Assembly (NCBI GenBank): GCA_001782075.1
Contig: MFNO01000014.1
Span: 1 to 33,012 of the forward strand
From: Candidatus Levybacteria bacterium RIFCSPHIGHO2_01_FULL_38_26
GTDB taxonomy: Bacteria; Patescibacteriota; Microgenomatia; Levybacterales; UBA12049
Direction: 5' to 3'
Length of the DNA: 33,012 nucleotides
Shown here in pieces: positions 3,041 to 27,987 of the stretch; the first letter of the stretch is position 1; each line of letters opens with the position of its first letter. The notes under the pieces were generated by a model that was not told the origin of the DNA, did no database searches, and saw only the letters and a list, made by a program, of their open reading frames with translations. The position numbers and the translations under genes were made by a program.

Positions 3041-3517
3041 ATGAAACGTGGCTTTACATTATTCCTAAAGGTAGTAATTTTGCTTATCGCAGTCGGAGCG
3101 TTTGCCGGTATGATTTGGTTTCCTCAAACTGAAGGAAGAGCCGCTAACTTAGACCTCATCAGTATTTATACAGATCCGTTTATTATCTATGGTTATATAG
3201 CTTCAATCCCATTTTTTGTTGGGTTATACCAGGCATTCAAATTATTAAACTTCATTGATGCAAATAAAGCCTTTTCCCAAGGCGCTGTTAATACACTAAG
3301 GAATATGAAATTTGCTTCTCTTAGTCTTATCGTTTTTATTACACTCGCAGTGTTTTATATCCGTTTCGCGGCTCACGGTGATGATCCAGCAGGTCCGACG
3401 GCGGTTGGAATTGTCGTATCTTTCACAGTCGCTATTGTTGCAACCGCTGCTGCTGTTTTTGAGAAACTTCTACAAAATGCTGTAGATATGAAATCAGAAA
3501 ATGACTTAACCGTATGA
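3041..3517 (+). CDS. DUF2975-family membrane protein
   Basis: This 158-aa protein has four predicted membrane segments, at about residues 7-27, 48-66, 91-108 and 120-140. The pattern with FxxGLYQAFKLLNFIDANKAFS before the third helix is characteristic of DUF2975. These proteins are nearly always encoded beside a small YozG-like Xre regulator, as here, where the next gene starts 9 bases downstream. The function of the pair is not established. No Shine-Dalgarno is visible and the promoter suggests leaderless translation. Confidence 0.85.
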   Translation: MKRGFTLFLKVVILLIAVGAFAGMIWFPQTEGRAANLDLISIYTDPFIIYGYIASIPFFVGLYQAFKLLNFIDANKAFSQGAVNTLRNMKFASLSLIVFITLAVFYIRFAAHGDDPAGPTAVGIVVSFTVAIVATAAAVFEKLLQNAVDMKSENDLTV

Positions 3518-3526
3518 GGTACGACT

Positions 3527-3742
3527 ATGGCAATAATAATCAACATTGATGTAATGCTGGCAAAGCGAAAAATGAGTGTTACTGAGCTTTCAGAGAAGGT
3601 TGGAATTACGATGGCTAATCTTTCTATATTGAAAAACGAAAAAGCAAAAGCGATTCGTTTATCTACTTTAGAGGCAATTTGTAAGGCTTTAGATTGTCAG
3701 CCTGGGGAGATTCTGGAATATAAAAGTGACGAAAACTCTTAA
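3527..3742 (+). CDS. Xre-family HTH regulator, YozG-like
   Basis: This 71-aa protein is a single Cro/C1-type helix-turn-helix domain: MLAKRKMSVTELSEKVGI, then TMANLSILKNEKAKAIR as turn and recognition helix, then LEAICKALDCQPGEILEY. This subfamily is the usual partner of DUF2975 proteins. It is the second gene of a two-gene operon and probably controls it. Confidence 0.9.
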   Translation: MAIIINIDVMLAKRKMSVTELSEKVGITMANLSILKNEKAKAIRLSTLEAICKALDCQPGEILEYKSDENS

Positions 3743-3861
3743 AGCTACATTAGTTACCGAAAAGGTTCTACAGATACAAGGATAAAATATCAATGTTGCA
3801 CCTCATGGATTCGTTCAGAACCTACAGAAATGATTCCTATGTTAATAACTCACCCCTTTGA

Positions 3862-3896
3862 TATAATTTCAGTGCTGCCAATGGCAGCATTTTTAT
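3862..3896 (+). promoter_or_regulatory. -10 box followed by a terminator-like hairpin directly before the start codon
   Basis: TATAAT (3862-3867) is followed by the hairpin TGCTGCC-AAT-GGCAGCA (3873-3889), five T residues and then, two bases later, the ATG of the 439-aa gene. With the expected start of transcription near 3874, the message would begin with this stem-loop. It could stabilise the 5' end, or attenuate transcription before the first codon. The same arrangement precedes the STAND ATPase gene at 23887. Confidence 0.6.
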
Positions 3897-5216
3897 ATGG
3901 ATAAACAAAAAGATGTAAAACCACCTGCTCCCACTGTCGGAGACCCAAAAAGAGACTTCTTTGTTGATATATGCCTAAAGGGAGCAAATGACCTCCGTCA
4001 AACATTAAAGATGGATGATAATGGGTACCTACGTGTTTTCTTTACTGCTCATCAAGACGCTAGGAAGTATTATATTTATGGTGTTCTAGATGAACTTGAA
4101 AAAGCCGGTGTTGCCTTGATGGGGTACAACGAAGTGCTAAAAGACACTTCAGGAGACACGCACGATCGGGTATCAAGAAACGTAACATCTTCCATTGTTG
4201 ATCAAGAAATGGTATGGGTTCGAAAGCTAACAGAAATTTTGGCTAACCTGATACTATTTATTACCATCAATACACAGGACTACTACAGACACCTCCTCCT
4301 AGTGAGTCATCTAGATGATTTAAAGAAAGTTCTCTCTGATACCAAAGAGTTTTTTTCTGTTGAAAATCAGAATCACAAGTATCAGAAAGATGAAACGATA
4401 AGAGACATTCAACAATTAGAAACCAAAATATCTTTAAACTCATGTTGGTATCTGGCAACAAAAAAAGGGGGGGGTAGACACATTGGAGAAAAGGGATTGC
4501 TGGCATCATTCAGAGAAAAGTTGCAACAGGCGTATTTGGTGGCAAAACCAGATCAGAAACTTGCATTAGGGATTACATATGGTAATACATATGGGCGATC
4601 GAGTCAGAGCTTACACCCTAATATTCTCCGCCCCGACCCTGACTTAGGAATAAAAGATATTGAAATTGGAATTGCTCAAATCGGAATTTTAGCTGCTCAT
4701 ATACTCATTGTGTGTAGAAAGTTACTCGGAGACAGAAGAAAGAAAGGCATGGTTGCTCAACTAGCAAGAGTTTTTAAAAAAAATGAATATCCAGATCAAC
4801 TATTAAAATCTAGAGTTAATCCATCAATAAAAAGGGGGGATTTTGTAATTGCCTACGGTGACATTGGCGAGGTTATCAAAATTTACAAGAGTAAATATGG
4901 ATATCGCTCATTTAAAGTAAAGTATCTTGGTACACCACCGCTAGCACATATCTTGTCAGATACATTTCCAGCAATGTTCGTTAAAAAATTTTACGACAGA
5001 AAAGCTATTGCAACTCAAGTCAAACAAAAAATAAAAGAAACAACTCCAGATTTAAAGGTTAGTAATCGAAATGTGGCAGATTCGTTACGAAAAACCATGT
5101 CAGATATGTGGGAAAAGTTTGGATTCAAAGAAAGATATTATGGGCGACCAGATCTTGCAAACAAGAAGATTGAGGTGTATTTAGAGGAACAGAAAAAGAA
5201 TAAACCAAAGCAATAA
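3897..5216 (+). CDS. Unknown protein, 439 aa, all-helical middle region
   Basis: I do not recognise this protein with confidence. Residues 20-90 look alpha/beta. Residues 95-180 are mainly helical and hydrophobic (LTEILANLILFITINTQDYY). The segment with YGNTYGRSSQSLHPNIL followed by an IGIAQIGILAAHILIVCRKLL helix recalls the layout of DUF5677-like helical proteins, where a conserved Ser/His stretch precedes a hydrophobic helix; this link is weak. The C-terminal third is basic and has SH3-like beta character (KRGDFVIAYGDIGEVIKIYKS). The gene is preceded by the hairpin leader and is convergent with the Mrr-like gene, which begins one base after its stop. Confidence 0.75.
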   Translation: MDKQKDVKPPAPTVGDPKRDFFVDICLKGANDLRQTLKMDDNGYLRVFFTAHQDARKYYIYGVLDELEKAGVALMGYNEVLKDTSGDTHDRVSRNVTSSIVDQEMVWVRKLTEILANLILFITINTQDYYRHLLLVSHLDDLKKVLSDTKEFFSVENQNHKYQKDETIRDIQQLETKISLNSCWYLATKKGGGRHIGEKGLLASFREKLQQAYLVAKPDQKLALGITYGNTYGRSSQSLHPNILRPDPDLGIKDIEIGIAQIGILAAHILIVCRKLLGDRRKKGMVAQLARVFKKNEYPDQLLKSRVNPSIKRGDFVIAYGDIGEVIKIYKSKYGYRSFKVKYLGTPPLAHILSDTFPAMFVKKFYDRKAIATQVKQKIKETTPDLKVSNRNVADSLRKTMSDMWEKFGFKERYYGRPDLANKKIEVYLEEQKKNKPKQ

Positions 5217-7086: not shown

Positions 7087-7347
7087 GTGGTAAAGTTTTA
7101 TTACACCTATGTCTTAAGAAGCCAGAAAGATAGAAAATTATATATTGGCTGGACAGATAACTTGATAAAACGAATAGAAAAACACAATAAAGGATTTGTT
7201 GCAGCAACGAAAAATAGATTACCTTTAGCATTAGTTTATTATGAAGCATGTAGATCGAAATCAAGTGCGATACTAAGAGAAAAGACTTTAAAAACTGGGT
7301 TTGGAAGAAAATATTTAGAGAATAGAATTAACAATATTCCGCGGTAG
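7087..7347 (+). CDS. GIY-YIG nuclease domain protein (UPF0213/UvrC N-terminal type)
   Basis: From the GTG at 7087 the protein is 86 aa. It has the GIY-YIG signature as YYTYVLRSQKDRKLYIGWT, then the catalytic Arg in NLIKRIEKHN, and ALVYYEACRSKSSAILREKTLKT with the conserved Glu. This is a complete single-domain nuclease of the small family common in mobile and CPR genomes; its substrate is unknown. The frame is open further upstream through the tRNA copy, but the -10 box placed 7 bases before the GTG supports this start. It lies between the broken and intact copies of tRNA-Asn and overlaps the tRNA by 10 bases. Confidence 0.85.
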   Translation: MVKFYYTYVLRSQKDRKLYIGWTDNLIKRIEKHNKGFVAATKNRLPLALVYYEACRSKSSAILREKTLKTGFGRKYLENRINNIPR

Positions 7348-7409
7348 CTCAATGGTAGAGCAGGTCGCTGTTAACGACAAGGTTCGAGGTTCGAGTCCTC
7401 GCCGCGGAG
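7338..7409 (+). tRNA. trnN: tRNA-Asn (GUU)
   Basis: The acceptor stem TCCGCGG pairs with CCGCGGA and the discriminator is G. The D arm is GCTC-AATGGTA-GAGC, the anticodon loop CTGTTAA gives anticodon GUU (Asn), and the T arm is CGAGG-TTCGAGT-CCTCG. The last anticodon stem pair is a G-A mismatch, and CCA is not encoded. It is the likely integration site of element 1: the recombinase gene on the other strand runs into its 3' half. Confidence 0.93.
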
Positions 7410-8897
7410 CATTTCGTTTCTTATTATAACTGCATGATTAGCTTGTAGTTTCAAGAAGATCGGTGTAGGTATAGTCTTCACAATCACCTTGTTTTTTACC
7501 TCGAATCTCTCGTAGAAAAATCTCATGTAATGCCTCTTTAAAAACTTTGGTGCTTCGATATACGTTTGATGGATATTTCGAGTAAATGCAAGCACTTCTT
7601 CAATTAAATTCATATCGATACTACAACTATCTTCAATCTCTTTCAAATTGGCATCCGCTACCTGAATCTTCAATTGAATCTCACTATGCTTACGCCGATA
7701 TGTTTCTCTATCGATCGTGCCATCAAGTAAGTTATCTTCTAGCTTATTTCTTCTCAATTCCAGCGAGGTCCTTAAATTCATGATTGCCTGTCTTTGAGAG
7801 GATGCTGACTGTCGGTTAAACTCTATTTTCTCTCTTGCTTTAGCAAGAACTAAGTTAACGAATTCCTCTGAAAACTGCATATTTTTAAATTGTTCTGCAA
7901 CTTGTTTCTCTAAGTTAGTCATTTCAATATAGGGAGAAGGGCAGTTATTCCGATCTCGCTTAGGACAGTGGTAATATGCGATTTTTCCGCCTCGACTTTT
8001 AAACTTTTTCTCGTTTTTATGCCATTCGGCGGTATATCTCTGACCGCACTCCGCACAGTTAATAAATCCTCTTAATAAAAAGTCATGTGTTCTCCTTCTA
8101 AGAAGGAAATCTCTATGTTTTGCTAGAACATATTGGCATGTATCAAAAAGATCCTTCTGGATGATAGGAACATGATTCCCTTTTTTTGATTCACCATGCC
8201 ATCGAATTTTTCCAAAGTAAAATGGATTTTTGAGTATATTGTTTATCACGCTATGCCCTAAACCAGTTCCAGTTCTTGATACAATATTCTTTTCAGCTAA
8301 CCAGTCTTGTATCTCAAGAATAGAATAGTTCCCTGTTGCATACAATTCAAATAACTCCTTAATTATAGAGGCTTCGTGAGGGTCTGGTTCGCATGTTTTA
8401 CGCTCTCTATCTCCTCCTACGCTCCTGTAGCCGATCGGCGGGGGTGATGGTTGCCATCCATCTCTAAACTTCTGCATTAACGCATCTTTTGTTCTTTTAC
8501 TATTTGCCTCCGACTCCCATTCTGCAACTGATGCAAATATATTCCCGATCAAACCCTCAGTTACATCTCCATTTTCGCAAACAGAGAGAAGTTTTACCTT
8601 CATTGCTTGAAATTGTTTTCTGATGTTAGAGAAATCACCTACATTTCGTGCAAACCGGTCTATTTTATAAACAATAATAGCTTCAACGGGATTTTCTTTT
8701 AGAGTGCTTAATAATTTTTGAAAAGCAGGTCTATCTATATTTCTTCCACTTCTTCCCTCGTCGGCAAATATATCCTTCGGATGATACGCATTCATATCAG
8801 CATAATCTTTACAAGCCCTTCTTTGATTTTCAATTGAGTATCCTTCAGTAGCTTGTTCATCAGTTGATACACGAATATATATGTAACAAGTTTTCAT
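7371..8897 (-). CDS. Large serine recombinase (integrase of element 1)
   Basis: This 508-aa protein has an N-terminal resolvase domain with the catalytic serine in YIRVSTDEQ (Ser11), plus VYKIDRFARN and FASVAEWESE. A recombinase domain follows (IKELFELYATGNYSILEI), then a zinc ribbon (CAECG...YYHC...CPSPYIE, about 277-325) and a coiled coil (about 360-415). It should catalyse site-specific integration and excision via a covalent serine-DNA link. The last 13 residues, MLRGEDSNLEPCR, are translated from the antisense of the tRNA-Asn 3' half, so the gene abuts the attachment site and borrows its stop from host DNA. A TATAGT box touching the ATG suggests a leaderless transcript. Confidence 0.95.
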   Translation of the reverse strand: MKTCYIYIRVSTDEQATEGYSIENQRRACKDYADMNAYHPKDIFADEGRSGRNIDRPAFQKLLSTLKENPVEAIIVYKIDRFARNVGDFSNIRKQFQAMKVKLLSVCENGDVTEGLIGNIFASVAEWESEANSKRTKDALMQKFRDGWQPSPPPIGYRSVGGDRERKTCEPDPHEASIIKELFELYATGNYSILEIQDWLAEKNIVSRTGTGLGHSVINNILKNPFYFGKIRWHGESKKGNHVPIIQKDLFDTCQYVLAKHRDFLLRRRTHDFLLRGFINCAECGQRYTAEWHKNEKKFKSRGGKIAYYHCPKRDRNNCPSPYIEMTNLEKQVAEQFKNMQFSEEFVNLVLAKAREKIEFNRQSASSQRQAIMNLRTSLELRRNKLEDNLLDGTIDRETYRRKHSEIQLKIQVADANLKEIEDSCSIDMNLIEEVLAFTRNIHQTYIEAPKFLKRHYMRFFYERFEVKNKVIVKTIPTPIFLKLQANHAVIIRNEMLRGEDSNLEPCR

Positions 8898-10465: not shown

Positions 10466-11347
10466 TTATTCACCTCCTTCAAACGTTATTTTGTTAAACG
10501 CTTCAATTAATTCATTATTCTGAAGATGAAGATATCTAGAAGTAGTCTGAGAGCTTCTATGACCCATTAATTGCTGTATGTACGGTAATGGGAGCCCTTC
10601 AGAGAGCAATGTCGTGGCAAATGTATGTCTTAACGAATGAACAGTTACTCTGCCATTGAAACCTGCTTTATGGGAATAGCTTTTTATTAAATGCCAAATA
10701 GAGGATGCTGATAATCTTTTACTCCTTTTACTTAGGAATAGAGGCTCATCTGTATTTCTGTTTATAACTTTTAGGTACTTTCTAAGGTCTTCGATCAGCT
10801 CGTCATGAAGAAATAGGTTTGTTTCACGATTTCCCTTCCGTTTTACTTTTAGAATATGTTTCGATAAATCAATGTCGCCAACATCCAAGCTTGCAATTTC
10901 AGCTCTACGCAATCCTGTTTTAAGTAGAAGCTTTGCAAGCATCAAATCTCTTTCCTTGTAATATGGAGTAGCAACCTTTTTAATTGTTTGTAGAAAAAGT
11001 ATTCGTTGATCTTGAGAAAGATATTCGGGGCTTTTTTCAGGCAACTTCATTGACTCTAGATTTATCGTTGGATTCTTTGCGATCAAGCTTTTACGAGATA
11101 AAAAGTTAAAGAATGATTTTATTGAGCTTCTTACTCTCGCTTTTGTAATGGTGGAGCATTGCAGATGAGAAAGGTATGTTTCGATATTCTTGTCTTCCAC
11201 CTGATCAGCATCGACTATTCCAAGTGAAAGAAGATAATTGATAAATTTCGTTAAATCATAATCATAAGCTTTCTTTGTGTTAAGACTACGACCTCGATAT
11301 TCGATCAAATAATTTAGAAATTGAATCTTAAATTCATTTATTCTCAT
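10466..11347 (-). CDS. Tyrosine recombinase (XerC/XerD-like integrase)
   Basis: This 293-aa protein has an N-terminal SAM-like core-binding domain (about 5-90) and a catalytic domain (about 108-290). All catalytic residues are visible: Arg147 in TGLRRAEI, Lys near 171 in KRKGNRET, His237-x-x-Arg240 in HSLRHTFA, His263 in MGHRSS and Tyr272 in SRYLHL. It overlaps the excisionase-like gene by 14 bases. Pairing with an excisionase argues for an element-borne integrase or resolvase rather than the chromosomal dimer-resolution enzyme. Element 1 thus carries both serine and tyrosine recombinases. Confidence 0.93.
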   Translation of the reverse strand: MRINEFKIQFLNYLIEYRGRSLNTKKAYDYDLTKFINYLLSLGIVDADQVEDKNIETYLSHLQCSTITKARVRSSIKSFFNFLSRKSLIAKNPTINLESMKLPEKSPEYLSQDQRILFLQTIKKVATPYYKERDLMLAKLLLKTGLRRAEIASLDVGDIDLSKHILKVKRKGNRETNLFLHDELIEDLRKYLKVINRNTDEPLFLSKRSKRLSASSIWHLIKSYSHKAGFNGRVTVHSLRHTFATTLLSEGLPLPYIQQLMGHRSSQTTSRYLHLQNNELIEAFNKITFEGGE

Positions 11348-14460: not shown

Positions 14461-15219
14461 CTAGATACTTTTTTCAATTAAATATCTCAGATTTAAATTT
14501 ACTGATTTCGAAACTTCTAACGGAGGAATTCCTAATATCTTGGCAAGCAGAAATATGGTATTTATTACATCTCCAGGCTTACTTGGTCTACCTTTCCATT
14601 CAATAAATGGACCATCTGTTTCTGTAAGTATTCTTTCAATGGGCAGATTTTTAAGCAATTCTTGACCTTTTTTAGTTTGCAGCATCGCTACATTGAATGA
14701 AAAATAGCAACCAAGATTAACCGCTCGTTGTGCCTCATTACTAGTTCCGGTGAACCAATGTAATACTACAGCACCTCGATCTATTGGTAGAAATTTTTCT
14801 ATGAACTCAAGGACTATGCCTGCTGATCGAACGCTATGCACTGTTAATATTTTACCCCCAACTTTTGAACAACATTTAAGGATATGTTCAAAAACTCTTT
14901 TTTGCTCACCAAAAGAATGGGAAAAATTAGGACTAGAATCAAGACCTACCTCCCCAATATACTTTGCTTCGGGAAGATAATTCTCCCATAGGAAAAGCTC
15001 CTTCGATGCATCTTTCCCGATCAATTGAGGATGAAGACCGAGTGCAGGTCGAACATACTTTGTGCCCTTGGTAAGATCGCGATTTCGTACCCATGCCCGA
15101 GGAGTTGTTGTGACAGCGAGGGTTCGAATAGCGTTTATCTCACAGAGCTCAATTAATTGGACATGATCTTCGTATAGATCAAGATGGCAATGGAAATCTA
15201 CAAGCGGTTTTATATCCAT
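14461..15219 (-). CDS. qatD: QatD, TatD-family metal-dependent DNase of the Qat system
   Basis: This 252-aa protein has the TatD fold signatures: DFHCHLD (8-14) with both metal-binding histidines, GEVGLDSSP with Glu90 bridging the metals, TVHSVRSA and VLHWFTG with later histidines, and ETDGPF in place of the more common ETDAP. TatD enzymes are metal-dependent nucleases. As the last gene of a qatA-qatB-qatC-qatD run, it is the QatD component of the known anti-phage system; alone it could pass for a housekeeping TatD. Its ATG lies 11 bases after the qatC stop. Confidence 0.9.
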   Translation of the reverse strand: MDIKPLVDFHCHLDLYEDHVQLIELCEINAIRTLAVTTTPRAWVRNRDLTKGTKYVRPALGLHPQLIGKDASKELFLWENYLPEAKYIGEVGLDSSPNFSHSFGEQKRVFEHILKCCSKVGGKILTVHSVRSAGIVLEFIEKFLPIDRGAVVLHWFTGTSNEAQRAVNLGCYFSFNVAMLQTKKGQELLKNLPIERILTETDGPFIEWKGRPSKPGDVINTIFLLAKILGIPPLEVSKSVNLNLRYLIEKSI

Positions 15220-15230
15220 AATTAATTTTA

Positions 15231-16595
15231 CTATTCCGGTTTGGTCTGCACATCGTTAAGAATATCTGCAACTTCGTCCATCCCTCTTTTGTATACCTCA
15301 GCAAGTGATTGTTGGCGTATTTGTGTCTCATCAGAAAGCGAACCAGAGCTTAGAATAATAATTTTTGCCAAATTTGGATTTATCTTGAGGCGTTGGATAG
15401 CAAACTGGAAAGAACGTATCTGTTGTCCTTCCGCCCGTAAAGTACTTAGAGCTTGCCCATTTAGGCTACTTACTGTGTAAGTTGTAGGATCAGCACTCAA
15501 TCCTTTTCTTATCGCGGCTCGACGAATTAAACAAGGAATACAATACCCACAATGTTGAACTCCGTAACCCCTATATCTTCCTTTGCTCGGTGAAGAGCAT
15601 GATAGCGAGCTGGGTAGAAGCTGTCGAAGAATAGGTTTATTAATGCATGAATCAATCATTTCTCCTTTGGTTTTATCCCAATATGGATTTTCAATATGAC
15701 CATCAATTTGTAGTAAATCAAGTATTTCATTCCATCGGGCTATATAAAATGGATGAGTTGTCCGCGTGCTATGTGAACCAAGCCTGAGCTGATCAAGCGG
15801 TATATTTAGAGCGATAAGCCCATTTTCAGGTACACGCAAGACAAAGTGCTTATTAAAGCCCGTGCCAGCGAGTACTCCTAAAGTGAAGAATAGGAATGAA
15901 CGACCACGAGTTGTCTTCTCATGTTCTTTGTTCCTAGCTCTGACTCCGGGAAAACTCATCCAAACACGTAAACGATCGAATTCATTTTGTGCGTAGTGAC
16001 TTTTGAGTGCATCAAAACACGTTTGTTGAGCATCACTCACCGAGCCCTCACTTGCGTGGCTAATAAGCAGAGGTATTTTCCCGTTTTGGAGTAGATCGAA
16101 AGCTCCGATAAGGCTATCAAGACCGCCTGAAAAAAGGGAGATGCAGTCAAATCGTACCCCGGTAAGCTGTAGGGTACCGGTAGGAGCAAGAATTGGAAGA
16201 TCAGTAGGGCGTGGTCGAAAATTAATTGTCCAAATATCTCCTGTTAGAAAGTTGAGCGTGCGGGTAAGTACAGAAGCTGCTTTATGCCACTTTGTAATAT
16301 CACTGACAGGCACAACTAGTCTGATCTCGCGTGTCCAACTATTTTGCGATTCGGTATCTCTTGGAATAAGAATGTCTGCGGCTTGGACATGAGCAGCGAA
16401 GATTAAAAGGTCAATCCCGGTTTCGGAAGAAAAGATTCCCATCCTTACAAGATCATCAAGAGCATGACCCATTCCATAATTCAATTTCCCATCTGGAGTG
16501 ACAAGGTTTAGCTTTGATAAAACCTCGTCAAGTGCTATTGGAATAGGAGTATTATCACTTGATCCGTATCTCCCGCAAATGACATGTCTTTTCAT
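15231..16595 (-). CDS. qatC: QatC, QueC-like PP-loop enzyme of the Qat system
   Basis: This 454-aa protein has an N-terminal extension of about 145 residues, then a PP-loop ATPase core with LFSGGLDSLIGAF (SGGxDS at 156-161). Near the C-terminus HCGYCIPC (Cys349, Cys352, Cys355, with Cys333 before) forms the zinc site of QueC, the enzyme that makes preQ0. It is much longer than QueC (about 230 aa), and no other preQ0 genes are nearby, which fits the defence protein QatC. Its chemistry in defence is thought to resemble nucleobase or peptide modification but is not shown here. It lies 8 bases after qatB. Confidence 0.93.
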   Translation of the reverse strand: MKRHVICGRYGSSDNTPIPIALDEVLSKLNLVTPDGKLNYGMGHALDDLVRMGIFSSETGIDLLIFAAHVQAADILIPRDTESQNSWTREIRLVVPVSDITKWHKAASVLTRTLNFLTGDIWTINFRPRPTDLPILAPTGTLQLTGVRFDCISLFSGGLDSLIGAFDLLQNGKIPLLISHASEGSVSDAQQTCFDALKSHYAQNEFDRLRVWMSFPGVRARNKEHEKTTRGRSFLFFTLGVLAGTGFNKHFVLRVPENGLIALNIPLDQLRLGSHSTRTTHPFYIARWNEILDLLQIDGHIENPYWDKTKGEMIDSCINKPILRQLLPSSLSCSSPSKGRYRGYGVQHCGYCIPCLIRRAAIRKGLSADPTTYTVSSLNGQALSTLRAEGQQIRSFQFAIQRLKINPNLAKIIILSSGSLSDETQIRQQSLAEVYKRGMDEVADILNDVQTKPE

Positions 16596-16603
16596 TGTTA
16601 TTT

Positions 16604-17476
16604 TTATCTATTTTCTGCATTAGCAAGTGCTAATAAAAGAGTAAATGATTGTTCATACACACCATCAACGAATTCGAGCATTTTATCAGGAGTGAGCTCT
16701 TCGAGTTTTTCGCGTGCTGAAGTTAGAGCGTCGGAAACGCCGTTGCTGATGAAATCACGCAGTTGATCCTGAACTTTTTCAACTTCTGAAGCATTTTCCG
16801 GTAGTGAGATTGTGTTTGTGCCAATCTCATTGTATAAACGTTCCTCTATGGTATGGGTCATATAGAGTTCAACCACCGTTTGAATTTGATCTGAATTTAA
16901 AGTATTAAAATCGGAAATACCCGCTTCCGCTAAGTCTGCGATTGTTCTAATGAATGAATCTATCGCTATTCCGGCATCTACAGTACCGCCTTCAGGACAA
17001 ATATAATCTCTTATGCCTGCAAAAATTTCTTCAACAGGACGTCCTGCCAAGGATTCTAATTTGAGTGAGCGTAAAACATTTTCTATACCTCGCTCTGAAA
17101 CATCGGAAAGGAACCCCAAAAGACTAGCGGCTGCCTTTCGGGATGATCCCATACTCCTTGCCGCATTACGCGATCCTCCAGATGTTTTGTTTATATAACC
17201 AGAGACTGCTCTTTTTAAGCTTGCATGATCAGTTCCGCCAGATCGTGCGAATCTGGAAAAGTTGGATCTCACAGTCCTAAATCTATTTGGATCAGCAGTA
17301 GGTGGAATCGGCGGATAGTTTGGAGGAGAGGGAGCTAGTCCTGGTTGAGGAGGAGTATTTTCGTCATTTGCACCGACCGATGGTTGAGATGGAGTCTCGA
17401 TTTCAGAGTACAACCAAGTCGGAATTAATGGAGTGTTTTTACCCCGAGTGCCTTTATTCGATGTAGATGTTCCCAT
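16604..17476 (-). CDS. qatB: QatB, conserved partner protein of the Qat system
   Basis: This 290-aa protein starts with a disordered Pro/Ser/Thr-rich stretch (1-65). A helical domain with a basic, Gly/Ala/Ser-rich signature follows (SLKRAVSGYINKTSGGSRNAAR and MGSSRKAAASLLGFL, about 84-120), then an alpha-helical C-terminal half (130-285). The signature and the position between a KAP ATPase and a QueC-like gene identify it as QatB. The family has no known enzymatic motif; in published work QatB is a substrate-like partner of QatC, which I recall but cannot verify here. Composition is visibly richer in G+C than the element's recombinase genes. Confidence 0.85.
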   Translation of the reverse strand: MGTSTSNKGTRGKNTPLIPTWLYSEIETPSQPSVGANDENTPPQPGLAPSPPNYPPIPPTADPNRFRTVRSNFSRFARSGGTDHASLKRAVSGYINKTSGGSRNAARSMGSSRKAAASLLGFLSDVSERGIENVLRSLKLESLAGRPVEEIFAGIRDYICPEGGTVDAGIAIDSFIRTIADLAEAGISDFNTLNSDQIQTVVELYMTHTIEERLYNEIGTNTISLPENASEVEKVQDQLRDFISNGVSDALTSAREKLEELTPDKMLEFVDGVYEQSFTLLLALANAENR

Positions 17477-17480
17477 ATCA

Positions 17481-19388
17481 TTATTTTTTCCTTCGGGTGC
17501 TTATTGCCGCTGCCGCTGCAGTTTTAAGCGGTTGGTTGTTTGAAGTTGATGCCCAACGATCTAATGATTGATCAAAACGGACATTATTTGCTGGATCTTT
17601 GATAACAGCATTCCATCCTTGCACTACCCATGGACCGAGATGGTCTAAAGGCAATGATTCAAGAAAACTCATAAGATTTGATTCTAACTCTGGATGTGCA
17701 GTAACCAGCACCCTCAATCCCTCTATACCCGGAGGCTGTGTATCAAATGAACCTTTACTCATAATACGGAGCCGGACTTCTTCAAATACTTGTGCTGTCT
17801 CGGGAGGGGCGAGTTCTCTAAGTTTAGAGTTCATTGCTTGGACGGTCATTTTAGGACCGAGCAGCTGTTCTGCTACCGCTACCAATTTTCCTAATGCCGA
17901 ATTACCACCGAAATAATCTTTTCGGTCTTTTGCTACAAAAAGATAGGGTCTCAAATCGATATCTCCTAATTGTGGTTGTACTGCTGCCCAAGACTGAATA
18001 TACTCCGATGAAATCCATCCTTGAGCTTCCGCACTAATAGATTCTTCTTTTGTTGATGTCTTCTTGTCCGTTTGCTTTTCAATATTTACTTCAAGCACTT
18101 TTAAATCCCGGCATTTACCATCGGCTGACGCTGCGGCCATTGCCGCTATAGAATCAAATAGCGGGGGAAAGAACCGTTCTGCCAACATGAGTTTGGCAAG
18201 GATGGGAAGCTTGATATCATCGCCAAACCCTCTAGCTTCTGCGATACGCTGACGCAATACGAGAGTGTTAAGGAAGCGTTTGATTTGACGAGGATTTCCC
18301 TTGGTTCCGGTAGCAAGAATAGTGCCTATCTGATCGCTAAGCGTGAGTGCGTCTAATACAGAAGCTGCTTTATCACCGAGCGTATCTCGTACGGTTGCCG
18401 CATCAATTGCAGCAACAGCCCATGGTTTCTTTAATCTCTGACGTGCAGCATCGATTAATTTTTGAAATTCAGGATCGTCTTCTCCAAGCTCCGCAGCGAT
18501 AAGGAGTAGAGTAACATAGGTTCGTGTTTCAGTTTCTCCAAGAGCTGGAATTCGAAACGGAACCTGGATAAGTTTTTCAAGATAATTACGAGCGTAATCA
18601 CGTGGACCGGTTGTATCGGGAAGTTCAGGGAAGTGTTTTCTTACCGCATATTCGATCATTGCCTCATCAGCCGCGACCACAAAAGCTGTGCGTTTTGTAA
18701 AGACAAACAGACGGACTGCTTCAAGTGTTTCAATCGCTACTTCCGGCAGACAACGATCAAGATCGTCTATAAGCACAACCAATTGATCAACAGAGGCTTC
18801 TTTTAAAAGATCGTCGAATGCTTTTTGAAACTCCTGTATTTCTTCCGGCAGATGTTTTGCCTCGGCAGATTTAAGAAGACCATCTAGTTGACCCATAGCA
18901 GATTCAATGTTTCCTTTAGTAGCAAGAGATGCTGGGTTACCAATAAGTCCTTTAACTGTACCGACGACAGCTTGTATTTGATCAGGTGTCGGTATGCCGG
19001 TAAATGCAGTCCAAGCCAGTCCTCCTCCTGTCTTTGCTGCCTTTAACCAGTCGATTCTTTTGAAGGTTTCTTTGAGTGCACCAGTTGCTTTCTTCAAAGC
19101 TGGTCTTTTTTCAACAAGACCGGTAACAATACCTTCAATCAGAGCGATTTTGGCGTCCTCGAAACCCTGAAAACGCCACCCATTAAATTTGACGCAAAGA
19201 ACATTTTCTTCCTTTTTAAGTCCTGACTCAATCATCTCAAGGATGCTTGATTTTCCTGCACCCCAATCTCCATGCACACCGATAGTAACGGGCTTATCCG
19301 GTCTCTCACGAAGAAGTTTCGTTATGGTGAGAGCAATAGCCTCATAGTTGAGAAGATCGACTTTTGTTTCATTATCGGTCAGAATCAT
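17481..19388 (-). CDS. qatA: QatA, KAP-family P-loop ATPase of the Qat system
   Basis: From the ATG at 19388 the protein is 635 aa; a TTG start 48 bases upstream is also possible. Walker A is GDWGAGKS (about 40-47) and Walker B is VVLIDDLDRCLP (about 204-215), with the large Gly/Ala-rich insertion between them that defines KAP NTPases. KGNPRQIKRFLN, a conserved KAP motif, follows near residue 360. KAP proteins are membrane-associated ATPases, and this one may sense or act at the membrane; no clear membrane helix pair is seen in the insertion except the hydrophobic TGGGLAWTAFTGI. First gene of the operon, 4 bases from qatB. Confidence 0.93.
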   Translation of the reverse strand: MILTDNETKVDLLNYEAIALTITKLLRERPDKPVTIGVHGDWGAGKSSILEMIESGLKKEENVLCVKFNGWRFQGFEDAKIALIEGIVTGLVEKRPALKKATGALKETFKRIDWLKAAKTGGGLAWTAFTGIPTPDQIQAVVGTVKGLIGNPASLATKGNIESAMGQLDGLLKSAEAKHLPEEIQEFQKAFDDLLKEASVDQLVVLIDDLDRCLPEVAIETLEAVRLFVFTKRTAFVVAADEAMIEYAVRKHFPELPDTTGPRDYARNYLEKLIQVPFRIPALGETETRTYVTLLLIAAELGEDDPEFQKLIDAARQRLKKPWAVAAIDAATVRDTLGDKAASVLDALTLSDQIGTILATGTKGNPRQIKRFLNTLVLRQRIAEARGFGDDIKLPILAKLMLAERFFPPLFDSIAAMAAASADGKCRDLKVLEVNIEKQTDKKTSTKEESISAEAQGWISSEYIQSWAAVQPQLGDIDLRPYLFVAKDRKDYFGGNSALGKLVAVAEQLLGPKMTVQAMNSKLRELAPPETAQVFEEVRLRIMSKGSFDTQPPGIEGLRVLVTAHPELESNLMSFLESLPLDHLGPWVVQGWNAVIKDPANNVRFDQSLDRWASTSNNQPLKTAAAAAISTRRKK

Positions 19389-19499
19389 AAAATTATCCCA
19401 ATTGGTAGCCCTAATTTTACTCTTTTCCGATAACAATTACTATAAGGATTGCTCGGGATTTTTTTGGGTTTGCAGAATCACAGCAGCTTGGGAAATTTA

Positions 19500-23611: not shown

Positions 23612-23824
23612 ATGATGGAAGATGTTAGAGTCAGATTCGGGAAACAGCTTCGAAGTTTACGAGAAGCAAAAAAACTTACCCAAGAAGGACTGGCAGACTT
23701 AGCAGGTATGCACTTTACCTATATTGGCCAAATTGAAAGGGGCAAGCGTAACCCTTCTCTTATAAACTTAGAGCGATTGGCTAAAGCTCTTAAAATCGAC
23801 GCAGGCAAGCTTCTACCGTTCTAA
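23612..23824 (+). CDS. Xre-family HTH regulator of element 2
   Basis: This 70-aa protein is a single Cro/C1-type HTH domain: FGKQLRSLREAKKLTQEGLADLAGMHFTYIGQIERGKRNPSLINLERLAKALKI, then a short tail ending LLPF. It is closely related to the truncated regulator at 6749. Divergent to the PH-like gene and next to two copies of the operator motif, it is likely the element's repressor, possibly also controlling the integrase. The start has two ATGs in a row. Confidence 0.9.
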   Translation: MMEDVRVRFGKQLRSLREAKKLTQEGLADLAGMHFTYIGQIERGKRNPSLINLERLAKALKIDAGKLLPF

Positions 23825-23840
23825 AATCAATCAAAAGAGG

Positions 23841-23886
23841 TATAATTGGATTTAGACTGCCCCTTAATATAGGGGCTTTTTCGTAT
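23841..23886 (+). promoter_or_regulatory. -10 box and terminator-like hairpin directly before the STAND gene
   Basis: TATAAT (23841-23846) is followed by GCCCC-TTAATATA-GGGGC (23859-23876), five T residues and, five bases later, the ATG of the 1366-aa gene. The predicted transcript starts just before the stem. The layout copies that before the 439-aa gene at 3897. As the stem and T run would also end transcription of the Xre gene, it might serve both purposes. Confidence 0.6.
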
Positions 23887-26800
23887 ATGGATATGATGAT
23901 AGCTTCCAAAGATCACCAGTGGCAATCAGCGATTTATGAAAAAGCTAAGGATTTGGCTGGTAAACGCTACACGCCTGAATTAAATGTCGATTTGCCAATA
24001 AGTCAGACTTTCGATGGTTTGGCAAGAAATATAGGCTTCTACAATAGAATTAGGAAATTGTATGGAGAGCTACGGAAGAGTAGAAGAGATATTTTTCCCA
24101 GTAATAATGCTGAATTGTTAGGGATAGAACTAACTAACTTCGATTATTGCTTCGAAGAATTTTTGTCGCAGGTTTCACAGATTAAGGAATATACTACTGC
24201 CAAGATTCCTTGGCAGGAAATAAAAAACACAGTAAAAAAATTGGATGAATATAGCTGGAAACTCCAAGATAAAATCTATGAAGTCCAAAAAAGCCCTGCT
24301 AACGAGAAGAAAAACGAACATTCTGAAAAGATATTTAATTCAGAATCGTATCATTTAAGTAAATTTAGAAGTTCGATTCATCAGTTCCAAGAATTACATA
24401 ATTCTGACGCCGCGAAACTTTCAAATCACCCCTTTCTGTTACTAACGGGCGTTACAGGAATTGGAAAAACTCATCTACTTTGCGACTTAGTTAAAAAAAG
24501 GATTAACGAGGGTTCATTCAGCTTTATTACATTGGGTCAGGAAATCAACGGCACAGACGACATTTGGAAGCAAGTAGTAAAAATAAATAGTGACGGCAGA
24601 TTAAAGTCTAAAAAAGCTTTATTAAAAAAGTTTGATCGACTCGGAGAAAGGACTAAATCACGTTTTTTTATCATTATTGATGCCTTAAATGAATCAGAGA
24701 AAGCTTCCTACTGGAAAACAACCTTGCCAGTTTTGATAAAAGATATAAGACGCTATCCGAACGTTGCATTAATCGTTAGCGTACGAAGTGGCTTCGAAAA
24801 AGAAGTAACAACCACAAGCTTGCGAAAGAGATTTCATGAGGTAGAGCATGGTGGTTTTAGATTTAGAGAGTGGGAAGCAATTAAAGAGTTTTTTACACAG
24901 TTCGGATTGCCATTGCCAGAGATACCTTTAATCAATCCTGAATTTTCTGTCCCTCTATTTTTATTGCTATTTTGTAAGTCGAGACAAAGACGAGCAAAGA
25001 AAAAAGGCAATAAGCAATTATTTAGAGGGCATGAGGGGTCAACTTCAATTTTTGAAGATTTTATTAAGGGGGTTTCTGAAAATATAGGGAAAGAGTTTGG
25101 AATAGGGTCAGTAGATAAAGTCTGGAACAAATTAATAAAACCCCTAGCCGAAGGAATGGTAAATAATAGAGGTCATAAAGACAAAATTAGCGAAGATCAT
25201 TTTAAAAAGCTACTAGCAAAAGAACTTCCTGGGGTTGATTTTGGCCTTCTTACGTCAAGCTTAGAAAAAAACCATTTGCTTATTAGAGTTCCCCGATATG
25301 GTAAAAAGGGAAAGCGAACTGGTTTCGATTATAGGTTTACTTATCAGAGATTTAGCGATCATTTGATATCCAGGTACTTAATGAATAAATATGCGAGTAA
25401 GAAAGCTTACGGTACAAATGCTAAAAGTAATCTAAGAAAGAGGTTAAGGAAAAGCGGAACAATTGGCAAACATTTTTACGATTATTCATTTCAAGGGGTA
25501 ATGAATGCACTGTCAATTCAAGTTCCTGAATGGTTGGATGGTGAAGAATTGATTGATTTATGTCCTTGGGCGCAACAAATTCTCGAAGAATCTTTTTTAG
25601 AGAGCATTATCTGGCGTAAGCCGAATGCTTTCTACTTAAACAACAAAGGACGTCCTGAAAGAACAATAAATATAATCAATAGATTGGTTTTGTCTTTTGA
25701 TGAAGGACACTCTAAGTTTTTTGCCACTGTTTTAAACGTTTCAGGTGTTCCAGATCACCCATTTAATGCCTTAAGGCTTCATGGTTATTTGATGAGTTTG
25801 GGAATGGCTTCAAGAGATAAGCTGTGGTCTTCAACATTTCTTCATTATGCTTATGGTGAAAACAGTTCTGTTGACAGACTTTTACATTGGGTACTTTCTG
25901 CTAGTTTCAACAAATCAATTTCAAGTCAGTCGAAGCTTTTGATGGGGGTTATACTAACCTGGTTTCTTGCAACATCAAATCGGTCGATAAGAGACAAAGC
26001 AACGAAGGGCTTAGTCATTTTACTAGAAAATTCCCCAGGTGTACTGTTAGAGCTTAATCAGCTTTTTGCAAAGGTCGATGATCTTTACGTTATAGAAAGA
26101 TTGTACGCGGTAACTTACGGAGCAGCATTACGGTTAAATAACTATAAAGACCCGTCCTTAATGAATCTGGGTAAGTTGATTTATGAAAACATATTTTCAG
26201 CGAAAAAACCTGCCGCACATATCCTTGTTAGAGATTACGCAAAATGTACTCTCGATTTGCTTATAAAACAAAAAGCTTACTCTCCACCTGATCGTTCTAA
26301 AATTAGCGCGGTGCAAAATGCAAAATGGCCGAAAAAGTTACCCACGATGAAATCTTTAGAAGATAAGTTTGAACCAAAGGCCTTTAGCTGGGATAAAGCT
26401 TCTTATGAAGATCGTGGGGTAAGAGCAATTTGGAACTCTTTCGACGGAATAGCGGACTTTTTTAGATATATTGTAGAACCCTCGATAAATCATTGGTCGA
26501 ACACAAAGAAAAGCGATCCATTCCCAACGACTACTAAGGAATTAGAGACGAAATTTTTGGAAAGCCTAAATCGAGGACAAATTAAGACTTATAAACAAAT
26601 CAAGGGGTTTCACCCTTTTATTAGGATCTCTCACTATTTAAAGATTGGTAAAGAAACAATAAGTCCAGAAGAAAAAAAGAAAATCAGGGAAGAAAATCGA
26701 TTGGAAAGAGTGTTGAATTTGATTAAGAAGTCCTTCTGGAATTCATTATCAGACGATCAAAAAGTATTGTATAGGAAGATACTAAGACAGACACAGTATC

Positions 26801-27987
26801 GATATCCTCGAAAGACAGGGCATTTTAATTCGGAATTTGCTAAACGATGGATTATTAAACGAGTATTCGAGCTTTATAAGCCTAACCTGCATGGTTACTT
26901 TGACGGTATGCGTGCCACCCATTACGCTAACACTAGAGACGATCACCCAATTGAAAGAATCGGGAAAAAATACCAATGGATTGCCTTACATGAACTACTT
27001 GGTTACCTGGCTGATAATTTTAGATTTCTTGAAAAAGACTATCCACCTGAATCTGGCGAATATCAGGGAACATGGCAAATTGGAGTTCGTGATATTGACC
27101 CTACTTGTATAACACTCCAAAAACCAAACTTTAACAATTCTCCGTGGAAGCCAAAATATGACGCCTGGAAGTTAAAAGAGTCAAGTTCCAAATGGCTTAA
27201 AAGAAAATCTGATCTTCCTGAACCGAGCGAACTTATTATTTACAAAGACCCCGAAGATACTGAATGGTATATTTTGAATTCTTACTTTAAATGGGAGCAA
27301 GATGTACCGCCAGAAGAAGAGAGATATCACTATCCAAGTAGAGACATATTCTATATGTTGTATTCGTATCTAGTTAAAAATGATGAGGCAGAGAAGCTTT
27401 TCAAGTGGTTTAAGAACCAAAATTTTTATGGTAGGTGGATGCCAGAGGTACGCGCTGGGATACAGGAATGTTTCTTTAGAGAATATCCAGATTCGGCTAT
27501 TTATGAAGGAATTTATTCTAAGTATGATACTCCACCTAATGGATGGATTGATAAAGTGTGGGGGCGCAAAAGAATGCCAGGTAGCATTATGGAGGTATAT
27601 GACGAGTTTTCAATCACAAATAGAGGTAGAGATAAATCCGTTGAAGAGTCTTTTAATATAGCTCTACCGTCTAAGTGGCTAATTCAATACATGAAGATTA
27701 GACAGTCTGGGCAAGATGGTTTTTGGATAGATAAAAAAGGTCAAATAATTTGTGCTGATTTGTCATTGAAAGAAGGTGGCAATTCAATATTAGCAGTTGA
27801 AAAAACATCATTTGTCAAATTTCTTATTAAGAATAAGCTCTCGTTGATATGGATGTTAATGGGTGAAAAGGGTGTTTTTGGGGAAGAGCATGGAAAAATG
27901 CAAGGACTTTCTGGTGCGTATTTGTTGAAATCCGACGGTTCAATAACTGGTAAATTTAGAATGGTGAGTGAAAAAGATAAGCGTTAG
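23887..27987 (+). CDS. Large STAND-type P-loop ATPase, putative defence protein
   Basis: This 1366-aa protein has an N-terminal region (1-150) beginning with a KRYTPELNVDLPI motif and a coiled coil. A STAND/NACHT-like ATPase follows: Walker A GVTGIGKT (188-195), Walker B FFIIIDALNE (about 260-269) and a sensor-like ALIVSVRSGFE (about 300-310). A winged-helix-like region runs to about 520, and the remaining 800 residues are mostly helical without repeats I can name. This plan, an N-terminal module, a STAND ATPase and a large C-terminal sensor, is that of Avs-type and NLR-like anti-phage proteins. No effector domain such as nuclease, TIR or protease is recognisable at either end. Its promoter has the hairpin leader. 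Confidence 0.8.
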   Translation: MDMMIASKDHQWQSAIYEKAKDLAGKRYTPELNVDLPISQTFDGLARNIGFYNRIRKLYGELRKSRRDIFPSNNAELLGIELTNFDYCFEEFLSQVSQIKEYTTAKIPWQEIKNTVKKLDEYSWKLQDKIYEVQKSPANEKKNEHSEKIFNSESYHLSKFRSSIHQFQELHNSDAAKLSNHPFLLLTGVTGIGKTHLLCDLVKKRINEGSFSFITLGQEINGTDDIWKQVVKINSDGRLKSKKALLKKFDRLGERTKSRFFIIIDALNESEKASYWKTTLPVLIKDIRRYPNVALIVSVRSGFEKEVTTTSLRKRFHEVEHGGFRFREWEAIKEFFTQFGLPLPEIPLINPEFSVPLFLLLFCKSRQRRAKKKGNKQLFRGHEGSTSIFEDFIKGVSENIGKEFGIGSVDKVWNKLIKPLAEGMVNNRGHKDKISEDHFKKLLAKELPGVDFGLLTSSLEKNHLLIRVPRYGKKGKRTGFDYRFTYQRFSDHLISRYLMNKYASKKAYGTNAKSNLRKRLRKSGTIGKHFYDYSFQGVMNALSIQVPEWLDGEELIDLCPWAQQILEESFLESIIWRKPNAFYLNNKGRPERTINIINRLVLSFDEGHSKFFATVLNVSGVPDHPFNALRLHGYLMSLGMASRDKLWSSTFLHYAYGENSSVDRLLHWVLSASFNKSISSQSKLLMGVILTWFLATSNRSIRDKATKGLVILLENSPGVLLELNQLFAKVDDLYVIERLYAVTYGAALRLNNYKDPSLMNLGKLIYENIFSAKKPAAHILVRDYAKCTLDLLIKQKAYSPPDRSKISAVQNAKWPKKLPTMKSLEDKFEPKAFSWDKASYEDRGVRAIWNSFDGIADFFRYIVEPSINHWSNTKKSDPFPTTTKELETKFLESLNRGQIKTYKQIKGFHPFIRISHYLKIGKETISPEEKKKIREENRLERVLNLIKKSFWNSLSDDQKVLYRKILRQTQYRYPRKTGHFNSEFAKRWIIKRVFELYKPNLHGYFDGMRATHYANTRDDHPIERIGKKYQWIALHELLGYLADNFRFLEKDYPPESGEYQGTWQIGVRDIDPTCITLQKPNFNNSPWKPKYDAWKLKESSSKWLKRKSDLPEPSELIIYKDPEDTEWYILNSYFKWEQDVPPEEERYHYPSRDIFYMLYSYLVKNDEAEKLFKWFKNQNFYGRWMPEVRAGIQECFFREYPDSAIYEGIYSKYDTPPNGWIDKVWGRKRMPGSIMEVYDEFSITNRGRDKSVEESFNIALPSKWLIQYMKIRQSGQDGFWIDKKGQIICADLSLKEGGNSILAVEKTSFVKFLIKNKLSLIWMLMGEKGVFGEEHGKMQGLSGAYLLKSDGSITGKFRMVSEKDKR

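Follow-up and report, generated by a model that had tools for sequence, protein, structure and literature searches.

The locus

The window is the whole of a 33-kb contig (33,012 nucleotides) of Candidatus Levybacteria bacterium RIFCSPHIGHO2_01_FULL_38_26, whose genome comprises 1.13 Mb in 38 contigs. Judged by its genes, the contig looks like a defence island, carrying QatABCD, a type II restriction-modification pair, Avs2, an Mrr-type nuclease, recombinases, and small XRE regulators. The QatABCD defence system is complete (14461-19436, minus strand), and a tRNA-Asn gene (7338-7410) and a serine recombinase gene on the opposite strand (7371-8897) overlap at the latter's 3′ end, which suggests insertion at the tRNA. 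The features that concern us here are the following.

3041-3517, plus strand: gene for a DUF2975 protein
3527-3741, plus strand: gene for an HTH_26 XRE regulator, its stop ca. 130 nt before the first hairpin
3793-3861, plus strand: possible small ORF of 22 codons
3862-3867, plus strand: TATAAT (-10), preceded by TGa (extended -10)
3873-3889, plus strand: stem-loop TGCTGCC-AAT-GGCAGCA, 7 bp (9 bp including flanking pairs), -11.1 to -13.1 kcal/mol
3890-3894, plus strand: T5 run, forming with the stem an intrinsic-terminator-like site
3897-5216, plus strand: gene for a 439-aa protein of a Patescibacteria-restricted family
23612-23824, plus strand: gene for an XRE "control protein"-like regulator, its end 34 nt before the second hairpin
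23841-23846, plus strand: TATAAT of the second copy
23859-23876, plus strand: hairpin GCCCCT-TAATAT-AGGGGC
23877-23881, plus strand: T5 run, followed by the ATG at 23887
23887-27987, plus strand: gene for Avs2 (STAND NTPase, 1366 aa; NF041813, 1036.6 bits versus a cut-off of 1000)

The 439-aa protein matched nothing in Pfam, NCBIfam, or PADLOC, and its structure model (pLDDT 71) had no significant match in the PDB. Homologues were found in Patescibacteria only, one of them (42%) being encoded in G094, which belongs to the same class, and the plasmid and viral searches returned no relatives. Across an alignment of five homologues the first Met does not vary, and we therefore take the ATG at 3897 as the true start; several homologues open with MDK...KPPxP, as does this protein. 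The gene is probably linked to defence. Among its neighbours in other genomes (L035, L095, L180, and L183) are genes for DUF3800 proteins and AAA_15/AAA_21 ATPases, as in defence loci.

Anatomy of the leader

A sequence-only reading of this DNA had placed a TATAAT, a GC hairpin, five T residues, and the start codon in immediate succession before the 439-aa gene, and direct reading finds all of them at 3862-3899. Five nucleotides (ttcag) separate the TATAAT from the stem, and the T5 ends 2 nt before the ATG (3897-3899); with its flanks, the element runs TGaTATAATttcag, TGCTGCC-AAT-GGCAGCA, TTTTTat, ATGGATAAAC. The predicted fold of the 32-nt leader has a free energy of -13.1 kcal/mol (z, -3.67), a value that none of 200 shuffles equaled. 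The impression of a terminator set before the first codon is likewise borne out: a GC-rich stem-loop with a U-run at once behind it occupies 3873-3894, and the position of the TATAAT fits a terminator lying between the predicted transcription start and the first codon. The U-tract is modest (U5, then AUAU). There is no recognizable -35 for this TATAAT, and for this reason the promoter scan missed it.

The absence of a Shine-Dalgarno sequence was correctly noted in that reading. However, this is ordinary here: SD-like motifs precede 50 of 311 genes in this genome and turn up at a control position in 31 of 311, and since the genome hardly uses such sites, a missing one is uninformative. Instead, -10-like hexamers peak 5 to 15 nt before ATGs, so that leaderless starts are common. 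The leader of the 439-aa gene departs from this common pattern, in that its -10 lies 30 to 35 nt upstream of the ATG (such hexamers peak genome-wide at -15 to -5) and a stem and U-run intervene. The 22-codon ORF, also read directly, stops 11 nt before the hairpin and has a TAAAAT (3783-3788) just upstream; it is unsupported and possibly of chance origin.

A second copy before Avs2

The same design was said to recur before the STAND gene, and it does: the Avs2 leader (23841-23889) reads TATAATtggatttagact, GCCCCT-TAATAT-AGGGGC, TTTTTcgtat, ATG. This hairpin has a fold z of -2.77, and like that of the 439-aa gene it is stable given its size. As claimed, the two copies share a start context (TAT-ATG-GAT), but such sharing is just mildly unusual (3 of 587 ORFs versus ca. 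1.1 expected). A 7-nt complement of one arm of the Avs2 hairpin lies inside the XRE gene (matched by 7 of 200 shuffles); we hold it to be chance, the stretch being a common XRE motif, and the signal was not reproduced when the full hairpin was set against the 100-nt upstream stretch (85 of 200 shuffles as good). The alignment of Avs2 itself to the best PADLOC Avs2 model begins no earlier than model position 173 of 1504, so that by this measure the protein seems short by ca. 170 N-terminal residues. Its plasmid relatives show 26 to 30% identity, and none was found among the other Patescibacteria sampled.

Two explanations arise directly from these neighbourhoods. First, each hairpin could be the ordinary terminator of the unit before it (DUF2975-XRE, or XRE before Avs2) that by chance abuts an ATG, with a fortuitous or minor TATAAT and a downstream gene expressed by read-through. 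This explanation, which on balance we consider somewhat unlikely, is nonetheless a strong rival, because both hairpins stand behind a regulator gene of the same orientation, at distances of 130 and 34 nt; moreover, there is precedent for a regulator gene expressed through an imperfect upstream intrinsic terminator (PMC10971746). Against it stands the exact extended -10 directly before the stem. Second, the palindrome might be a DNA operator at +1, bound by the putative XRE protein encoded just upstream. Each palindrome does have an XRE gene before it and coincides in part with the predicted start; however, both are followed by a T5 that an operator would not need, and we regard this explanation as very improbable.

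Tests for a sensing leader

The sequence-only reading had offered an attenuator as one possible function. In such a case, a leader begun further upstream, perhaps with translation of the 22-codon ORF (whose -10-like hexamer stands at near-leaderless spacing), would toggle between termination and read-through. We found no upstream segment competing for the hairpin (93 of 200 shuffles as good) and no alternative partner for its 5′ arm (142 of 200), in a test that the L066, L136, and own-genome rplC leaders, run as positive controls, all passed. If transcription starts at the TATAAT, there is practically no RNA with which to sense anything, only ca. 5 nt separating the -10 from the stem. Taken over all of its 158 nt, the region is not markedly structured, its fold being only a little better than expectation (z, -1.69), and an Rfam covariance-model search of the window returned one tRNA and no leader or riboswitch.

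Conservation of the stem in orthologous genes, on which the reading had staked its proposal, also failed to appear: the hairpin is absent before the ATG in all four homologous genes examined. Two of these leaders have a TATCAT 6 to 8 nt before the ATG, a leaderless-type promoter, and the remaining two are of other types. A conditional attenuator at this gene is accordingly improbable, even though several leaders elsewhere in the lineage look like one (see below). Given that there is neither a sensor nor conservation, the likeliest role of the hairpin is that of a simple brake or stop signal.

Recurrence in the genome and lineage

We surveyed 720 kb of the genome itself and five relatives at 400 kb apiece (six genomes, 2.72 Mb). 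The former contains 13 strict intergenic hairpin-plus-T4 sites, and at 8 of the 10 that lie between same-direction genes the T-run falls within 20 nt of the next ATG (clustering at 6 to 20 nt), for which uniform placement gives a P of ca. 2.5e-5. Some similar clustering is seen in the related genomes. With all six pooled, hairpins with a T-run are concentrated within 26 nt of an ATG, whereas hairpins without one occur there at about the background rate. The hairpin and T-run pressed against the AUG are thus a real, recurrent device of this lineage.

The dependence on the T-run favors termination over a protective stem as such. It therefore weighs against the notion that the hairpin shields the 5′ end while the U-run offers the ribosome an unstructured landing site. 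The predicted start, which puts the stem at the extreme 5′ end, and the low genome-wide use of Shine-Dalgarno sites would suit a stabilizer or translation enhancer of this kind, but we think it quite improbable. The plain upstream terminator is affected in both directions: all eight own-genome sites have same-direction genes upstream, as that explanation would have it, but placement within the gaps is nonrandom, pressed against the ATG, and 3 of the 17 ATG-adjacent hairpin-T entries of the six genomes lie in divergent gaps, as does the hairpin before a Mom-domain gene in the relative G043.

The exact-TATAAT version is much rarer. Across the 2.72 Mb, an ATG-ORF follows 4 of the 9 hairpin-T sites that an exact TATAAT closely precedes and 23 of the 311 others (Fisher P, 0.004), a count that takes in both prompting sites and one site that is intragenic. 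The proposed search of related genomes for promoter, stem, T5, and ATG yielded an independent example (in G043), but just the one in 2.72 Mb. Taken by itself, the pattern TATAAT-N-T5-N-ATG shows no enrichment, with 33 matches in the genome versus 42 in the reversed control, so the signal resides in the stem. What looked like a third copy (C13:78548) was rejected; it lies within a sugar-nucleotide epimerase/decarboxylase-type gene.

The sites are of two kinds, those in which an upstream segment competes with the hairpin and those in which the hairpin is bare. To the bare kind belong the 439-aa gene, Avs2, ATCase, dnaJ, and the G043 Mom-domain gene. The ATCase leader (L052:16541-16593) reads TTGACC-17-TAAAGT-6 nt-hairpin-T7-ATG, with the hairpin at the predicted start, a placement reminiscent of pyrBI attenuation. 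At dnaJ the gene's own -10 comes after the T-run. The G043 gene (L078, minus strand, ATG at 11220), whose 607-aa product carries a Mom-family domain (PF25680), reads TTGATT-17-TATAAT-6 nt-hairpin-T5-ATG in a divergent gap, and because its upstream neighbour diverges, this hairpin cannot be the terminator of an upstream gene.

Attenuator-like leaders

Competing upstream pairing was found in two L066 leaders and in those of L136, L171, L167, and, most clearly, rplC (L3). Judged by their sequences, several ATG-adjacent leaders are evident attenuators with predicted antiterminators, rplC being the best. In this family of Patescibacteria its leader lies between rpsJ and rplC (L044:17130-17301, in C22 of this genome; L080; L184-L213) and comprises, in order, TATAAT, GGAGGT-N-(G)GCUACAUAG, the hairpin AAGCGACUCUAUGUGGUCGCUU, U5-8, and rplC. 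The terminator hairpin and T5 are present in 25 of 26 readable leaders, and in many of them the upstream (G)GCUACAUAG is able to pair with CUAUGUGGUC of the hairpin. In register, 86% of cells pair, versus 13 to 51% when slid; double changes are nearly absent, so covariation is not established for this pairing. The rplC leader matched no Rfam family, and Rfam searches of the leader-bearing loci returned tRNAs only.

Leaders that end in AACCTCCC...GGGAGGTT-T7 or in CCCGCC...GGCGGG just 5′ of an ATG were seen at L168:9858, L171 (minus strand), L167:3194, L136:2821, and L066 (minus strand, two); in these an upstream GGGAGG or GGGCGGG could pair instead, and the genes include an M1 peptidase. The 14-mer ATGAGAAACCGAGC is common to the rplC leader (L044, ca. 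17100-17200) and the start of an unrelated 138-codon gene (L066, minus strand).

Discussion

With its GC-rich perfect stem, short loop, and T-run, the element before the 439-aa gene resembles an intrinsic (Rho-independent) terminator. However, its place is not past the end of a gene: a promoter-like -10 precedes it, and a start codon follows after 2 nt. In having a terminator-like hairpin between a predicted promoter and the first codon, it is akin to attenuators and 5′ premature terminators (PMC2965389), of which the survey by Naville and Gautheret (2010) lists 18 E. coli candidates less than 15 nt from a start codon (PMC2965389), but it differs from attenuators in lacking an alternative structure, a sensing region, and conservation in homologues. 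The rplC leader shares its TATAAT, terminator hairpin, T-run, ATG, and lack of an Rfam match; unlike it, the rplC leader has an antiterminator in many genomes and a nearly constant hairpin. At vtrB (PMC10971746), too, a terminator separates an upstream unit from a downstream gene that receives partial read-through, as we propose for the 439-aa gene, although the read-through at vtrB is a regulated one.

We tentatively favor, at a little short of even confidence, a constitutive, partial intrinsic terminator that heads the transcript of the 439-aa gene and acts as throttle and insulator without sensing. Transcription would most likely start 6 to 8 nt past the TATAAT at 3862-3867, which would place the 5′ end of the RNA at the left foot of the hairpin or within it. 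Some 20 nt on, at the U5 tract, a part of the polymerase complexes would terminate, releasing RNAs of ca. 20 to 25 nt, and the remainder would read into the AUG, which in this genome would be recognized without a Shine-Dalgarno sequence. The hairpin would also stop transcripts coming from the upstream XRE/DUF2975 unit. On balance, a gene that was acquired horizontally and is probably related to defence would be expressed constitutively at a low level and be insulated.

This proposal is consistent with the energetics of the hairpin and T-run, with the extended -10 at 5 nt from the stem, with the clustering before ATGs, and with the examples that have their own promoters (ATCase and the G043 gene). 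No upstream pairing competes with the hairpin here, which also speaks for the proposal, and its absence in homologues is what a local element without sensing should show. Against the proposal stand the missing -35, the modest U-tract, and the single independent exact-TATAAT example; furthermore, the hairpin is equally well placed to serve as the terminator of the upstream unit alone. The regulatory device suggested by the sequence-only reading thus survives as an architecture, recurrent in the lineage, with attenuators elsewhere and a divergent case in G043, but not as a switch at this copy, which has no antiterminator, sensing RNA, or conservation.

A broader and more speculative possibility, which we consider distinctly unlikely, is that a minimal, sensorless series of -10, hairpin at about +1, U5, and AUG forms a built-in throttle on acquired defence or DNA modification genes (the 439-aa, Avs2, and G043 Mom-domain genes) in Patescibacteria that make little use of Shine-Dalgarno sites. 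Whatever its fate, the survey reveals that terminator-like hairpins adjoin start codons in this group and that some of them, as at rplC, appear to be conserved attenuators missing from Rfam. If the element before the 439-aa gene works as we propose, it would be about the smallest expression throttle possible, with promoter, hairpin, U-run, and AUG in ca. 35 nt, workable largely without Shine-Dalgarno sites, and it would show how such bacteria hold potentially harmful defence genes quiet.
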